Source: Elusimicrobia bacterium HGW-Elusimicrobia-2
GTDB taxonomy: Bacteria; CG03
Direction of reading: 5' to 3'
NCBI GenBank assembly: GCA_002841685.1
Contig: PHAM01000054.1
Span: 1 to 11,941 of the forward strand
DNA length: 11,941 nt
Shown here: one piece after another, positions 477 to 11,941 of the stretch
How positions within the stretch are numbered: position 1 is the stretch's first letter
Layout: each line of letters begins with the position of its first letter
Position numbers and translations under genes: made by a program
The notes under the pieces: generated by a model
Told to the model about the DNA's origin: nothing
Database searches by the model: none
The model's input: only the letters and a program-made list of their open reading frames with translations

Positions 477-1361
477 ATGCAAAAAATGAACAAGAAACAG
501 CTCGCAATTTTTGAAGGCCGAAAAATTCGCCGACTTTGGGATGAGGAAAAACAAAAGTGGTATTTTTCGGTAATTGATATTATTGCTGTTCTTACTGAAC
601 AGCCCGATTTTAAAAAATCTAAAAGTTACTGGACAACACTTAAAAGCCGCCTGAAAAATGAAGGGAGTGAGTTGGTCACAAAATGTGACCAACTCAAATT
701 GCAATCTGCTGACGGAAAATTTTACAAAACCGATGTCGCGGATGTGGAAACATTGTTGCGCCTTATTCAATCTGTGCCAAGTCCAAAAGCTGAACCGGTT
801 AAACTTTGGCTTGCCAAAGTCGGCTATGAACGAATGCAGGAAATAAGCGATCCGGAGAAAGCGCTTAATCGCGGACGGGATTATTGGCAAAGAATGGGGC
901 GAAGCAAAAAATGGATTCAGCAAAGAATGATGGGCCAGGAAATCAGAAATAAATTGACGGATTACTGGAAAGACAATGAAGTTAAAGAAAAAGACGGATA
1001 TGCCATTTTGACAAATATTATCCATCAGGAATGGAGCGATCTGTCCATTAAAGAACACAAGAATTTAAAAAGGTTGAAAACACAAAATTTGCGCGATCAT
1101 ATGACAGATGCGGAATTGGTTTTTACGGCCTTGGCGGAACTGTCCACCCGTCAGATTGCCGAATCTATGAAAACCAAAGGATTGGAAAAAAATAAAATTC
1201 CAGCCAGAAAAGGCGGTCGCATTGCCAAAAATGCGCGAAAAGAATTGGAGAATAAAACGGGTAAAAAAATTGTGAGCGGAGAAAGTTTTTTACAATTCCC
1301 CAAAAGTAATAAAAAATTAAATGAAAAAATTAAGGGAGTAAGGGAGAGGGATTATGAATAA
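477..1361 (+). CDS. Bro-N / DinD-like DNA-binding protein (phage antirepressor family)
   Basis: A 294-residue protein. The first roughly 120 residues look like a BRO family N-terminal domain (IRRLWDEEKQKWYFSVIDII, then SYWTTLKSRL and TDVADVETLLRLIQSVPSPKAEP, which I quote in parts). The remainder resembles the DinD/antirepressor C-terminal region, with IKEHKNLKRLKTQNLRDHM, ELSTRQIAESM and a GGRIAKNARKELE stretch. Such proteins occur in phages, as SOS-inducible DinD, and as solitary chromosomal genes; most have no known role. The ATG at 477 has no clear Shine-Dalgarno; the ATG at 486 is an alternative. The gene is more AT-rich than pgsA and pgpA on either side (for example 17/60 G+C at 961-1020). 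Its last 8 nt overlap the pgpA start, and it carries the pgpA ribosome binding site within its 3' end. I infer an insertion into a pgsA-pgpA operon. The target of the protein is unknown. Confidence 0.85.
   Translation: MQKMNKKQLAIFEGRKIRRLWDEEKQKWYFSVIDIIAVLTEQPDFKKSKSYWTTLKSRLKNEGSELVTKCDQLKLQSADGKFYKTDVADVETLLRLIQSVPSPKAEPVKLWLAKVGYERMQEISDPEKALNRGRDYWQRMGRSKKWIQQRMMGQEIRNKLTDYWKDNEVKEKDGYAILTNIIHQEWSDLSIKEHKNLKRLKTQNLRDHMTDAELVFTALAELSTRQIAESMKTKGLEKNKIPARKGGRIAKNARKELENKTGKKIVSGESFLQFPKSNKKLNEKIKGVRERDYE
668..696. repeat. perfect 13-bp inverted repeat inside the Bro-N gene
   Basis: Arms TGAGTTGGTCACA (668-680) and its exact reverse complement (684-696) are separated by AAA. The palindrome lies within codons for residues around ELVTKCDQL of the Bro-N protein. 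It could be an operator for a DNA-binding protein, possibly the gene's own product, or an RNA hairpin; nothing here proves either. Confidence 0.8.
1341..1350 (+). promoter_or_regulatory. ribosome binding site for pgpA within the Bro-N 3' end
   Basis: AGGGAGAGGG lies 3 nt before the ATG at 1354 (GGAG core at 1343-1346, about 7 nt away). It is one of the few strong Shine-Dalgarno sequences in this cluster. It lies inside the last codons of the Bro-N gene, so translation of pgpA is likely coupled to, or at least read together with, the inserted gene. Confidence 0.6.
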
Positions 1362-7199: not shown

Positions 7200-7287
7200 G
7201 GAGAGGTGACCGAGCGGCTTAAGGTGTACGCCTGGAAAGCGTATGTACTGAAAGGTACCCAGGGTTCAAATCCCTGCCTCTCCGCCA
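7200..7287 (+). tRNA. tRNA-Ser (anticodon GGA), CCA encoded
   Basis: Acceptor GGAGAGG (7200-7206) pairs with CCTCTCC (7277-7283), discriminator G7284, encoded CCA 7285-7287. The anticodon stem TACGC/GCGTA encloses CTGGAAA with anticodon GGA at 7234-7236, reading UCC and UCU. A long class II variable arm and the T arm CAGGG-TTCAAAT-CCCTG complete the fold. The last 9 nt belong to the 23-bp repeat that recurs at 11821, which marks this gene as the probable integration site of the downstream island. Confidence 0.95.
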
Positions 7288-7301
7288 ATTCAATCGTTCC
7301 G
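7279..7301 (+). repeat. 23-bp direct repeat, left copy (att-like, tRNA-Ser 3' end)
   Basis: Begins TCTCCGCCA, the last nine bases of tRNA-Ser, and continues ATTCAATCGTTCCG. The identical 23 bases occur at 11821-11843. The copies diverge immediately outside, with C versus G before and C versus A after once aligned positions 7302 and 11844 are reached. This is the expected left junction of an element integrated at a tRNA 3' end. Confidence 0.85.
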
Positions 7302-7375
7302 CTTTTTGACTGAATACCCCCTCAAAAATTTCGCGTCCGCCTGCGGCGCTTATTTCATTTTTAAGAGAGCCCCTT

Positions 7376-7897
7376 TCATTTTTTTTGGAAGAAACAATTA
7401 CCTCTGCCTTCCTGCGTCGGAACAAATCTCATCGGCAGGCGATAGGTGGGTCGCCTGCCTGCAAAGAAATCAAACGGCTTTCGGAACGAAAATGACAGGG
7501 TATTGTCCCTTAATACGAAGTTCGAACCGGTTTTTCGGCAAATTTTCACCAAATTTGCGTAATTCCGCTCTTTTATTATTTTCTCGACGGAATTACAGGT
7601 TAAAACAATATCCTTCGCGAGTTCGAACCAACTGTTACTCTCATTCTTCGAACTGGTTATTTTTTGCTTTAGTTCAATTTTTTCTTCAATCAAGGGCGCT
7701 TTCTTATTCTGATATTCGGCAGGGTCAATCAGTCCGCTGATGTAACCTTCAAGCAAGCGATCCAACCTCTGACTAATATCAGTCAAAGTCTTTTCAAACT
7801 TTTCCGAGAGCGACGAGATATTTTTGCTTTCATCAGTTCTGTATTTCTCTAAGTCCTCTAAAATCTTCTTAGCAAAATATTGTGATGCATTATGACG
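7376..7897 (-). pseudogene. C-terminal remnant of a large serine recombinase
   Basis: Reading the minus strand, an open frame begins right after the in-frame stop at 7898-7900 and runs to the stop at 7376-7378. The conceptual protein opens NASQYFAKKILEDLEKY, continues through RLDRLLEGYISGLIDPAEY and a charged, coiled-coil-like stretch, and reaches RKTGSNFVLRDNTLSFSF and KPFDFFA. This is the pattern of the coiled-coil and C-terminal end of large serine recombinases. The catalytic resolvase domain (with its Ser and Arg motifs), the recombinase domain and the zinc ribbon are all absent. About 25 extra residues after FDFFA are encoded by an inserted-looking palindromic repeat. The TTG at 7786 gives an artificial shorter ORF. 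No start codon or promoter is evident. It is a degraded mobility gene and supports the island interpretation. Confidence 0.6.
7434..7459. repeat. 9-bp inverted repeat at the end of the recombinase remnant
   Basis: GGCAGGCGA (7434-7442) and TCGCCTGCC (7451-7459) are perfect reverse complements around an 8-nt loop. On the minus strand it begins directly after the codon for the last conserved recombinase residue (FDFFA). This suggests that a dispersed palindromic element replaced the original gene end. Confidence 0.7.
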
Positions 7898-7967
7898 TTA
7901 AAACACCAGACTCTGCCCGTTGATGGATAGGCTTAGTCCGAAGAACGTCGAAGAAAACGGTACAAGT

Positions 7968-7985
7968 CGCCAACTTCAGTTGGCG
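7968..7985. repeat. 8-bp palindromic hairpin upstream of the cassette promoter
   Basis: CGCCAACT, 2-nt loop TC, AGTTGGCG; the arms are exact. It ends 25 nt before the proposed -35 box. Similar GCCAACT/AGTTGGC palindromes are, from memory, common dispersed elements. A transcription factor site is also possible. Confidence 0.65.
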
Positions 7986-8010
7986 GAGTTTCAGAAGATA
8001 CGTATCGTAT

Positions 8011-8040
8011 TAGACAGGAGATTGTAAATTATGCTATAAT
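8011..8040 (+). promoter_or_regulatory. extended -10 promoter giving a leaderless sucC-like mRNA
   Basis: TAGACA (8011-8016), an 18-nt spacer ending in TGC (8032-8034), and a consensus TATAAT (8035-8040) form an extended -10 promoter. Transcription should start about 6-7 nt later, at or next to the ATG at 8047. No Shine-Dalgarno lies between the -10 box and the ATG, so the transcript is predicted to be leaderless. Confidence 0.65.
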
Positions 8041-8046
8041 AAAATT

Positions 8047-9174
8047 ATGAAACTTTACGAATTTGAGGGTAAAAAAATTTTAAAAGAGCACTCCATCCCT
8101 GTTCCAAGGGGGGGGGTATATGAAGAATATAGCATAGATAGGGAATCTTATCTCTCCAATATACCAGTTGTTTTAAAAGCCCAGGTTCTGACAGGCGGAC
8201 GTGGTAAAGCAGGTGGAATCAAGTTAGTGGATACAGAGGATGAAGTACGTAGCAGCTTTGAACATATTTTAAAACTTAAAATCAAAGGTTTGCAGGTCAA
8301 AAAAATCCTTATTGAAGAAAAACTTGATGTGAAGCATGAACTTTACTTAGGTTACAGCATACTGCGATCAGAAGCAAAAATAGTTTTCATGATTTCAAAA
8401 GAAGGTGGTATGGATATTGAAGATCTTGCACGTACAAATCCTGAAGCTATAATCAAATTCCCCATAAACATCATTGATGGATTTGATAAAGATACAATTG
8501 GAGATTTAGTTGGAAAACTTGGGTTTGCTAATGAAATCACTTTACAAATAACAAATATTGCGGAAATTCTGTATGGTATTTTTACAGACTATGAATGTGA
8601 TGTTGCGGAAATTAATCCTCTTGTTATTACCGATGATGATAAACTAATAGCGGCTGATGCTAGAATATCAATATATGATGAGGCTATTTATAAACATCCT
8701 GAATATCAAAAAGAAGAAGACACATATACCACTCTGGAAACCAAGGCTAGAAGAATTAATCTCGGCTATGTTGAAATGGATGGTAATATAGGAGTTACAG
8801 GCAATGGAGCCGGGTTGAATATGGCAACACTTGATATCATAACATACTTTGGTGGTAAACCGGCTAATTTTCTTGAAGTATCCGGACGAACCTACCACAA
8901 GGCAAAGGAAGCTATAGAAATAATTCTTTCCAATCCTAATGTTAAAATTATATTCGGCAATTTTTTTGGATGTATATCCAGATGTGATGTTATTGCAGAA
9001 GGTTTAGCCGCAGCAATAAAAGACGGAATATTGAATGTTCCATTGGTTATAGCCATGCGAGGTACAGGTTCGGAAGAAGGTTTGAAGACATTGAAAAATG
9101 CTGGTGTAGAAGAACTCTATGAAGATGATATTGACGCCGGAAAAAGGGTTATTGAAATTTTGAAAAAATTATAA
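8047..9174 (+). CDS. sucC: divergent succinyl-CoA synthetase beta-type subunit (ATP-grasp)
   Basis: Beta subunit of an ADP- or GDP-forming acyl-CoA ligase; the family makes succinyl-CoA from succinate and CoA, or runs the reverse reaction to make NTP. It has 375 residues against about 388 in E. coli. The ATP-grasp domain shows AQVLTGGRGKAGG (G50-G57), LIEEKLDVKHELYLGYS, SKEGGMDIEDLA (from G120) and EINPLV (E188). The CoA-ligase domain shows GNGAGL (252-257), as in archaeal-type relatives. It is unusual: the normally conserved GGGA after FLDV is SGRT (279-282), and the FGGI near the active-site interface is FGCI (308-310). It therefore may use another acid. A 9-G run covers codons 21-24. The stop overlaps the sucD-like start in TAATG. 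The family is certain; succinate as substrate is not. It is AT-rich and lies within the putative island. Confidence 0.85.
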   Translation: MKLYEFEGKKILKEHSIPVPRGGVYEEYSIDRESYLSNIPVVLKAQVLTGGRGKAGGIKLVDTEDEVRSSFEHILKLKIKGLQVKKILIEEKLDVKHELYLGYSILRSEAKIVFMISKEGGMDIEDLARTNPEAIIKFPINIIDGFDKDTIGDLVGKLGFANEITLQITNIAEILYGIFTDYECDVAEINPLVITDDDKLIAADARISIYDEAIYKHPEYQKEEDTYTTLETKARRINLGYVEMDGNIGVTGNGAGLNMATLDIITYFGGKPANFLEVSGRTYHKAKEAIEIILSNPNVKIIFGNFFGCISRCDVIAEGLAAAIKDGILNVPLVIAMRGTGSEEGLKTLKNAGVEELYEDDIDAGKRVIEILKKL

Positions 9175-10043
9175 TGGCAATTCTTATAAATAAAAAGACT
9201 AGAGTTCTGGTTTCAGGGATGACGGGAAAGGAAGGAACATTCCATTCTCGTAAGATGTTGGATATGGGAACAAACATTGTTTGTGGAGTTACCCCGGGAA
9301 AAGGCGGAACAACGCATTTGGGTAAACCCATATACAATTCAGTAAAAGATGCATTGGTTAAACATGAACTTGATGCATGCGGAATATTTGTTCCTTCAAA
9401 ATTTACCATGGCCGCTGCTAACGAAGCTGTTGATGGTGGTATCAACCTTATAATCGTAATCGCAGAAGGAATATCTCCTCACGATTCTCTTAAATTTATA
9501 TCCAAAGCAAAAAAGAATAATGTCATTTTGATAGGCCCTAACACTCCAGGACTTTTAACTCCAGGAGAAAGCAAAATAGGTGTTTTAGCCACTGAATATG
9601 TACAAAAAGGTAATATTGGCGTTATATCTCGAAGTGGAACTTTGACAGTTGAGATTTGTTATTATCTTGTCAAAGAAGGATTAGGGCAGAGCACAATTGT
9701 AGGTTTGGGCGGAGATCCTGTTGTGGGTTCTACCTTCAAGGAGATGTATAAACTTTTTGAGAAAGATAAAGAAACAAGAGGAGTAGTTGTTGTTGGAGAA
9801 ATTGGTGGAACAATGGAGGAAGAACTAGCGGAGTATATATTACAGAGCCAAAATAAAATACCAACAGTTGCATTTATAGCCGGGCAAAATGCTCCTCCTG
9901 GTAAAAGAATGGGTCATGCGGGGGCTATTATCGAAGGTGGTATGGGCTCGGCGGATTCAAAGATTGAAGCACTTAAAAAGGCAGGTGTTAGTATAGCTAA
10001 AGTACCGTGGGAAACAGGAAAATTAATGAAGGATATCTTATGA
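9174..10043 (+). CDS. sucD: succinyl-CoA synthetase alpha-type subunit
   Basis: Alpha subunit of the same ligase, carrying the CoA-binding domain and the histidine that is phosphorylated during catalysis. It has 289 residues, the normal length. The CoA-binding Rossmann region starts NKKTRVLVSGMTGKEGTFH (from residue 6). GPNTPGLLTPGE and ISRSGTLTVE match the family, with Thr where GPNCPG is usual. GLGGDPVVGSTF and the phosphohistidine loop KRMGHAGAI (H248) are present, so catalysis should be possible. The ATG at 9174 shares one base with the sucC-like stop, and its own TGA lies in an ATGA overlap with the next gene, so the three proteins are translationally coupled. The alpha subunit is less divergent than its beta partner. 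Confidence 0.9.
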   Translation: MAILINKKTRVLVSGMTGKEGTFHSRKMLDMGTNIVCGVTPGKGGTTHLGKPIYNSVKDALVKHELDACGIFVPSKFTMAAANEAVDGGINLIIVIAEGISPHDSLKFISKAKKNNVILIGPNTPGLLTPGESKIGVLATEYVQKGNIGVISRSGTLTVEICYYLVKEGLGQSTIVGLGGDPVVGSTFKEMYKLFEKDKETRGVVVVGEIGGTMEEELAEYILQSQNKIPTVAFIAGQNAPPGKRMGHAGAIIEGGMGSADSKIEALKKAGVSIAKVPWETGKLMKDIL

Positions 10044-11329
10044 GAATGATAGATGCTCATATACACTGCGGCAACTGGACAAAAATCTATACGCTTGAAA
10101 AAATGAAGAAAGATTTAAAAGAAGCCGGGTGCTGTGGAGCAGCGGTATTTGCTTTTCCTGAAGACATGTACCGCTTAACCGACACCCCTGAAAGGCGAAT
10201 AGAAGCAAATAATTATGTGTTGGAAATTTCAAAAGGAGAAAAAGAAATAGAACTTTATCCATTCTATTTTGTCTGGAACGATTTCATAGTACCGGATAAC
10301 CTGAAAGATTATAAAGGAATAAAATGGCATCGTCATCCTGATGAGCCAAGATATGATTACAACAAACTTGAATGTAAAGAAATACTCTCTCTTATCAAAG
10401 AATTGGAATTGCCTGTAATTTTGGAGGAAGAAACAAAGATAACAGCTCAATTTATAGACAGAAATCCTGAAATTAAAGTAATAATTCCTCATATGGGAAA
10501 ATTAAGCGGCGGGTATGACAAAATGGATATTTTCTTTGATAATCCTAATATTTACTTTGATACCAGCGATGCATCATTTGAAGCAATTGAAAATGTTTTA
10601 AATAAAGTTGGCGCCATGCGGGTAATTTTTGGATCAGACATCTCAGGTACAAAGGAACCCTTTTATAATTTCCCCAAAGTAGAACTTGATAAATTATCAC
10701 AATTGAAATTAGATCATTTGAGTAAAAGTCTGATATTTTCCAGAAATATTGAAAAATTAATGCATGTGAAGATTCGCGATAAAATTAAAAATTTCCAGAT
10801 AAAAAAAAGAAATATCGAAAATATTCAAGACTGGAAACAATATTTTTCTGATCTATCCAGAATAGTTGGTTTTAGTAAAATAACCGAACAACAAGGACAT
10901 CATGATATTATGGTAAGGGATAGCGCTGATTCTGTTAATGATAACAATTTTAAAGAATTGATTGTCGGTAATTTATTTTGGTCAAAATATGGAAAAATAT
11001 TTATCAAGCATCCAGAGTTATTTAAACAATATCTTGAAATCATCTTAATTCACGAAACGGGTCATATATTATCATCTGCAATAAGGTATCAGTATGATGA
11101 AGCTATTGCTACGATGACCGGAGCCGAAAGTTTTGGCTACCAAAAAAAAGAAATTTTGGATCTGTTATCAGTAGTCGCTGCTGTTGATTGTGTTATATAT
11201 CCCACAGAAAATTATTTTGAGGCAGTGAGGGTAAAATACAGCAAATTATTTTTTGATGAATTAACAGATAGTGAAGTAAATTTAATTATAGATAAGGCGA
11301 TTTCCATTTACAATACAAAATTAAAGTGA
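10040..11329 (+). CDS. amidohydrolase-type TIM barrel fused to an HExxH zincin-like domain
   Basis: A 429-residue protein with two apparent domains. Residues 1-about 230 resemble amidohydrolase-2/TatD-like metal-dependent hydrolases: MIDAHIHCG (H7, H9), GIKWHRHPDE (from G93), PHMG (H151) and IFGSDISG (D200). The strand that usually carries a metal-binding His reads PVILEEE (E129-E131), so this ligand is missing or replaced by Glu. Residues about 270-429 contain ILIHETGHI (HETGH at 338-342), a zinc-metalloprotease motif, with E354 in YDEAIAT as a candidate third ligand, faintly like ImmA/IrrE peptidases. I do not recognise this fusion. The start at 10040 gives an ATGA overlap with the sucD-like stop and begins MRMIDAH; an in-frame ATG at 10007 would add 11 residues inside sucD and is less likely. 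The coupling suggests a function linked to the acyl-CoA ligase; substrate unknown. Confidence 0.7.
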   Translation: MRMIDAHIHCGNWTKIYTLEKMKKDLKEAGCCGAAVFAFPEDMYRLTDTPERRIEANNYVLEISKGEKEIELYPFYFVWNDFIVPDNLKDYKGIKWHRHPDEPRYDYNKLECKEILSLIKELELPVILEEETKITAQFIDRNPEIKVIIPHMGKLSGGYDKMDIFFDNPNIYFDTSDASFEAIENVLNKVGAMRVIFGSDISGTKEPFYNFPKVELDKLSQLKLDHLSKSLIFSRNIEKLMHVKIRDKIKNFQIKKRNIENIQDWKQYFSDLSRIVGFSKITEQQGHHDIMVRDSADSVNDNNFKELIVGNLFWSKYGKIFIKHPELFKQYLEIILIHETGHILSSAIRYQYDEAIATMTGAESFGYQKKEILDLLSVVAAVDCVIYPTENYFEAVRVKYSKLFFDELTDSEVNLIIDKAISIYNTKLK

Positions 11330-11400
11330 AACTAAAGTTCCGACATAACGAGCAAGTATCCCCGACTTCACAGACTGTGTCATAATAATTCTCCGCTTTG

Positions 11401-11436
11401 CGTTAAAAAAATGTAAAGAAAAATAATGTTTTAACG
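11401..11436. repeat. 8-bp inverted repeat downstream of the cassette
   Basis: CGTTAAAA (11401-11408) and TTTTAACG (11429-11436) are exact reverse complements around an AT-rich 20-nt loop. The right arm extended to TGTTTTAACG (11427-11436) is the reverse complement of 7896-7905, which lies at the broken end of the recombinase remnant. Confidence 0.6.
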
Positions 11437-11559
11437 ACAAAAGGAATGTTTTTAGTATGGGGGTTACAACTGCTATATTGCTATAGCCACAGGTATGTGA
11501 TATTGCCCTATCTGAATGCTACCAAATATTTTAGTAGACTGTAAAATTGAGTCAATAAA

Positions 11560-11715
11560 AATACTGAACCCCGCCTCCTCCGAGCTCTCTTGCGTATGGC
11601 GAGCTTGCGAGCCATAAAAGAATAATGAATAAGATTCCTCACTACGTTTCGGAATGACAAATAAAATATAAAGATCACCCTCACCTAAGTCCTCTCCCAT
11701 CAAGGGAGAGGATGA
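11560..11715. repeat. dispersed intergenic repeat with terminal hairpin
   Basis: Includes GATTCCTCACTACG followed by a CGGAATGACA-like end, and the palindrome TCCTCTCCC (11690-11698)/GGGAGAGGA (11704-11712) with a 5-nt loop. The minus strand reads ...VIPKRSEESYSLFFYGSQA, a phrase I recognise as a recurrent spurious translation of intergenic repeats in many environmental genomes. It is not a protein gene. Confidence 0.6.
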
Positions 11716-11817
11716 ATGAGAAAATCAATGAGTGAATTGATTTATGATGATGAAACTTATAAAATGCCCTTAATGAATGATGAGGTGCTTTCTACTATAA
11801 GTTCGAACATAGTTTGA
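11716..11817 (+). pseudogene. 33-residue ORF, possible N-terminal scrap of a GxxExxY-family gene
   Basis: ATG at 11716 is preceded by GGGAGAGG at 11704-11711, a strong Shine-Dalgarno that lies inside the 3' arm of a hairpin. The product reads MRKSMSELIYDDETYKM and ends after 33 codons at TGA 11815-11817. MSELIYDDETYK resembles, from memory, the N-terminus of GxxExxY proteins, a small family with a nuclease-like fold; the rest does not. It is either a broken gene or a chance ORF, and it ends 3 nt before the right 23-bp repeat. Confidence 0.3.
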
Positions 11818-11820
11818 AAG

Positions 11821-11843
11821 TCTCCGCCAATTCAATCGTTCCG
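11821..11843 (+). repeat. 23-bp direct repeat, right copy (att-like)
   Basis: Exact copy of 7279-7301, including the last nine bases of tRNA-Ser with CCA. No tRNA precedes it. With the next bases it forms CGTTCC-GAG-GGAACG (11837-11851), a 6-bp inverted repeat that the left copy lacks. It marks the likely right end of the island. Confidence 0.85.
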
Positions 11844-11941
11844 AGGGAACGGCAAATACATCGTAACCCCTTTTATTTGAAAAAGCAATTTTTTTCTTAA
11901 GCAAAGAACAAAGATCAACAGGCGGGATCATAGCAATGTTG
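11844..11941. other. sequence beyond the right repeat, no assigned gene
   Basis: Short stretch to the window edge. If the island model is right, this is the original sequence downstream of tRNA-Ser. A minus-strand frame is open from the edge to TAA at 11770-11772 (56 codons) and runs through the repeat, but I cannot support it as a gene. Confidence 0.3.

Follow-up and report, generated by a model that had tools for sequence, protein, structure and literature searches.

Within a contig of Elusimicrobia bacterium HGW-Elusimicrobia-2, of which 11,941 nucleotides were analysed here (the window), one gene had been predicted to join a metal-dependent amidohydrolase barrel to a domain with a HETGH motif. 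The question raised by this locus is whether the two parts are truly encoded as one protein, and whether that protein would hold two metal centres. The features on which the analysis rests are collected in Table 1.

A single reading frame for both parts

The frame at 10040-11329 runs uninterrupted through 429 codons, and the opposite strand holds no rival long frame across the same interval. Its translation contains H7, H9, H151 (PHMG), D200 (GSD), H338-E339-T-G-H342, D353 and E354, all at the positions named in the original prediction, and its claim that barrel and HETGH part share one polypeptide was likewise borne out. The fusion of the barrel with the C-terminal region (the tail) is real as sequence, with one case so far: it is known from a single genome among all collections searched, which limits the weight that it can carry. 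A search of the literature turned up no paper relevant to amidohydrolase-HEXXH fusions.

Table 1. Features of the window that bear on the fused gene and its surroundings
Feature	Position	Strand	Basis
tRNA-Ser (GGA), presumed insertion site	7200..7287	+	ARAGORN, Rfam
Perfect 23-bp direct repeat, left copy (putative attL), overlapping the tRNA 3' end	7279..7301	+	
C-terminal remnant of large integrase	7376..7786	-	PHROG 95 integrase, E 9.3e-7, with the fragment lengthened upstream as far as about 7880
sucC, beta subunit of succinate-CoA ligase, preceding the fused gene in its operon	8047..9174	+	NCBIfam NF001913, 375.5 bits, above cut-off
sucD, alpha subunit of succinate-CoA ligase	9174..10043	+	NCBIfam NF004230, 363.7 bits, above cut-off
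Barrel, residues 1-243 (HxH H7/H9, K95-W-H97, E129-E130, H151, D200)	10040..10768	+	Pfam PF04909, AF2 model, Foldseek, relatives L002, L003, L004, L005, L044
Orphan C-terminal region, residues 244-429, mostly helical	10769..11326	+	Open frame, codon usage
HETGH motif, residues 338-342, context IILIHETGHILS	11051..11065	+	Sequence
D353-E354, candidate third metal ligand, +11/+12 from H342	11096..11101	+	Sequence; ligand role inferred
Perfect 23-bp direct repeat, right copy (putative attR)	11821..11843	+	

The amidohydrolase barrel

Residues 1-243 are an Amidohydro_2-type TIM barrel, in agreement with the amidohydrolase assignment made from the motifs. They score 34.9 bits against Pfam Amidohydro_2 (PF04909; cut-off 26.4, E 1.9e-8), and the AF2 model, for which eight relatives were used, is confident in the barrel. 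With the barrel model Foldseek returned the amidohydrolase 3cjp first (E 1.3e-8), decarboxylases and ACMSD also being matched, and a profile of the six-member barrel subfamily found 3cjp, 3ij6, 2f6k and ACMSD among PDB sequences. With the known members of Amidohydro_2 (CAC3332 3cjp, 3ij6, 2f6k, ACMSD) the barrel shares HxH on strand 1, H151 on strand 6 and GSD on strand 8. HxH, H151 and D200 of the expected metal site are thereby present. However, E129-E130 stands in place of the strand-5 His, the barrel is short at about 243 residues, and it continues into a C-terminal extension.

The five nearest relatives of the barrel (35-41% identity) are stand-alone single-domain proteins of 239-257 residues, which end where the HETGH part begins. 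Their sources include Omnitrophota, Desulfobacterales and Planctomycetota genomes and one unclassified bacterium. Homology that seemed to continue past the stop codons of L002 and L003 was rejected, the frames beyond them consisting of repeated stops and unrelated sequence. In an alignment of the fused protein with these five, D5, H7, H9, K95-W96-H97, E129-E130, H151 and G198-S199 are invariant, and D200 is conserved except in L003, which has Gly. On strand 5 a Glu is found in six of six members, as opposed to 'PVLLH' in the more distant L012. Because the invariant Glu-Glu replaces the strand-5 metal His in all six, we read these 'GIKWHRH / LEEE' barrels as an uncharacterised subfamily of Amidohydro_2 with an altered predicted metal site. 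This subfamily is the more secure point of the present analysis, and the replacement on strand 5 should change the metal chemistry. The subfamily, whose Glu-Glu pair lies at window 10424-10429, occurs in several phyla.

The barrel is most likely the working part of the fused protein, a metal-dependent enzyme that hydrolyses or decarboxylates a small carboxylated substrate. Its metal would be held by H7, H9, D200 and E129, the last in the place of the strand-5 His, and H151 would serve as the catalytic histidine. These roles are proposed because of what is known of the family, and the fold and the subfamily are shown by the model, the matches and the alignment.

Coding status and relatives of the tail

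The tail comprises 186 codons without a stop at 29% GC, and none of 20,000 composition shuffles kept a frame of this length open. Its in-frame codon usage, scored as likeness to the rest of the operon, lies above 2000 of 2000 shuffles. From the open frame and the codon usage together it follows that the tail is very probably translated, barring sequencing error.

No credible family match to the tail was obtained from Pfam, NCBIfam, PHROG, PADLOC or the PDB sequences, and none of the zincin families in Pfam scores it credibly. For ImmA/IrrE (M78) nothing was matched in Pfam up to an E of 10, in a search whose filters drop weak matches. Relatives of the tail were absent from 386 genomes spread over the domain, from 384 genomes of the phylum to which the Omnitrophota relative belongs, from the 16 genomes available for the source organism's own phylum, and from viral contigs, phages and plasmids. 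One marginal match among the 384 genomes, to CoaB (phosphopantothenate-cysteine ligase; L065, E 1.1e-4), was rejected as chance, as a CoaB profile made without L065 gave the tail a score no higher than shuffled sequences receive. Weak HETGH-like matches (L074, L075, L076 and L078) were also discarded, all being short local alignments that lie in giant proteins or in unrelated frames. Neither the stand-alone barrel relatives nor the sucCD genes of the other examined genomes are adjoined by a HExxH gene with the strict context, and there is therefore no partner in the form of a separate gene that would support the fusion.

The HETGH motif: metal site or chance

The original prediction had inferred either two metal centres that act on one substrate or a peptidase domain that controls the hydrolase, and had asked for structure prediction followed by fold comparison. 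The motif itself was upheld and fits the zincin-consensus context (IILIHETGHIL around 338-342), but a zincin fold was not established, given the missing family match and the poor modelling of the tail. The tail is of low confidence in both AF2 models, where it is all-helical with no strands. At HETGH the pLDDT falls below 50, the helix is broken and the motif lies in a loop between helices. Foldseek and VIA-align searches with the tail model gave generic helical proteins and no zincin among the matches listed, from a model so poor that these matches are uninformative and would not exclude one.

The strongest rival explanation gives the tail no catalytic role: HETGH would have arisen by chance in a helical extension that evolves quickly, serves oligomerisation or regulation, and was gained by an ordinary amidohydrolase in the island. 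The orphan status of the tail and its modelling as helices with HETGH in a loop agree with this, as do the frequencies of the bare motif. When the 186-residue tail was shuffled, HExxH turned up in 0.7% of cases, and across the ten listed proteins of the window the rate was 6%, so a bare HExxH is not rare for a scan of the whole window. A survey of proteins at large counted 151,223 occurrences of HExxH where chance would give 80,000 (PMC3650047); because this is only about a twofold excess, conservation is the real test of such a motif. However, the stricter zincin context, with its hydrophobic surroundings, was reached in just 0.06% of tail shuffles and 0.3% for the ten proteins, and these frequencies make chance an unlikely source of the motif in its context. 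D353 and E354 also stand at a distance from H342 that is plausible for a predicted third ligand, and HETGH is followed by an ExxAxxxG pattern that presumably resembles the glutamate helix of Glu-zincins (M48-type proteins). With these points on both sides, we consider a chance motif a serious contender that falls a little short of an even chance.

A strand-then-helix order ahead of the motif (GKIFI...LEIILIHETGH) is possible from the residues, as in mini-zincins, for which a minimal plan has been described (PMC3890501). The tail resembles mini-zincins and Glu-zincins (DUF1025, M95, ImmA/IrrE M78, M48) in that its HExxH stands in a zincin-consensus context and is followed at +11/+12 by an acidic residue. 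Unlike these families, it has no sequence or fold match, and the spacing of D353/E354 is not that of HEXXHXXGXXD.

Another explanation, which we regard as improbable, makes the tail a HEXXH oxygenase-like domain that uses iron and 2-oxoglutarate and is not proteolytic. HEXXH domains fused to radical SAM enzymes are found in RiPP pathways and were earlier mis-annotated as peptidases (PMC12636437), so that fusion of such a domain to another metalloenzyme has a parallel in the ChlBH-like proteins, and co-transcription with succinate-CoA ligase would be compatible with 2-oxoglutarate metabolism. In contrast to those fusions, the tail has no family match (none in NCBIfam at E up to 1, with filters that drop weak matches), its partner is an amidohydrolase, and no precursor peptide or RiPP gene was recognised nearby. 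With only about 185 residues, the tail is also small for this role.

The explanation that we prefer, and to which we assign an even chance, is that of a Glu-Glu amidohydrolase barrel with an appended mini-zincin-like tail in a lineage-specific island. A barrel of the stand-alone Amidohydro_2 type would have acquired a C-terminal domain specific to its lineage. H338 and H342 of this domain, together with D353 or E354, would make up a small metal site of zincin type, in which E339 would be the general base, and a short strand region (GKIFI) would lie ahead of the site. We hold the presence of a zincin-like site in the tail to be about evenly balanced, would sooner expect the tail to lack proteolytic activity than to have it, and find two metal centres on one chain plausible. 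Tethered to the barrel, the tail may then serve the same pathway as an accessory metal domain, either as a peptidase or in a non-proteolytic capacity. The most specific form of the proposal, a two-metal-centre enzyme composed of a Glu-Glu amidohydrolase barrel and an undescribed mini-zincin domain and encoded with sucCD in a tRNA-Ser island, is more tentative and somewhat less probable than not. If the tail were a true zincin, it would represent a domain family without recognised sequence relatives, and a hydrolase barrel and a peptidase-like site would be carried on one chain.

The sucCD operon and the tRNA-Ser island

The fused gene is the last in the order sucC-sucD-fusion, and its ATG overlaps the sucD stop by four nucleotides (ATGA). 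It is apparently coupled to sucCD, and the fused protein may be made together with SucCD through translational coupling. Elsewhere in the small phylum of the source organism sucC is 56-79% identical, the closest copy being from the same genus, and the fused gene is absent from the other genomes of this phylum that carry sucC. In the same-genus genome G003 a fabF-like gene, and not the fused gene, comes after sucCD. The only sucC detected in the source genome sits inside the tRNA-Ser island.

The operon is located between the two 23-bp repeats, in an AT-rich island of about 4.5 kb within window 7200-11843. The island segment has 36% GC, against about 50% in the flank, with a sharp step near 7300-8000. 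A 17-base core of the repeat occurs at these two sites only in the whole genome, even when two mismatches are allowed. Because a tRNA gene, direct repeats, a GC difference and an integrase remnant are found together, the fusion is most likely carried by an integrative island that has decayed.

The least probable explanation, and a highly unlikely one, is a chimeric contig in which the fusion or its surroundings would be an assembly artefact: the GC step is sharp and the contig of this multi-contig draft genome ends in a repeat, but the step coincides with the tRNA gene, direct repeat and integrase remnant of a classic island, the last 98 bp are shared with other contigs of the genome, which speaks for this half of the contig belonging to it, the nearest sucC (79% identical) comes from the same genus, and the domain junction shows no break in frame or composition save a modest drop in GC.

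About nine other contigs of the genome also carry the 98 bp in question (11844-11941) at their ends. This multicopy repeat starts exactly after the right 23-bp repeat, the assembly breaks there, and it is probably the end of an insertion sequence. Positions 98-192 of L047 (G000, contig C90) have 27 bp in common with the left end of the island (7287-7313) and, in inverted orientation, 77% identity to 11482-11558; they are possibly the remnant of a related small element. At window 477-1361, between pgsA and pgpA, there is a gene for a BRO-N domain protein (PHROG 15286, E 2e-92), a DinD-like phage-associated gene.
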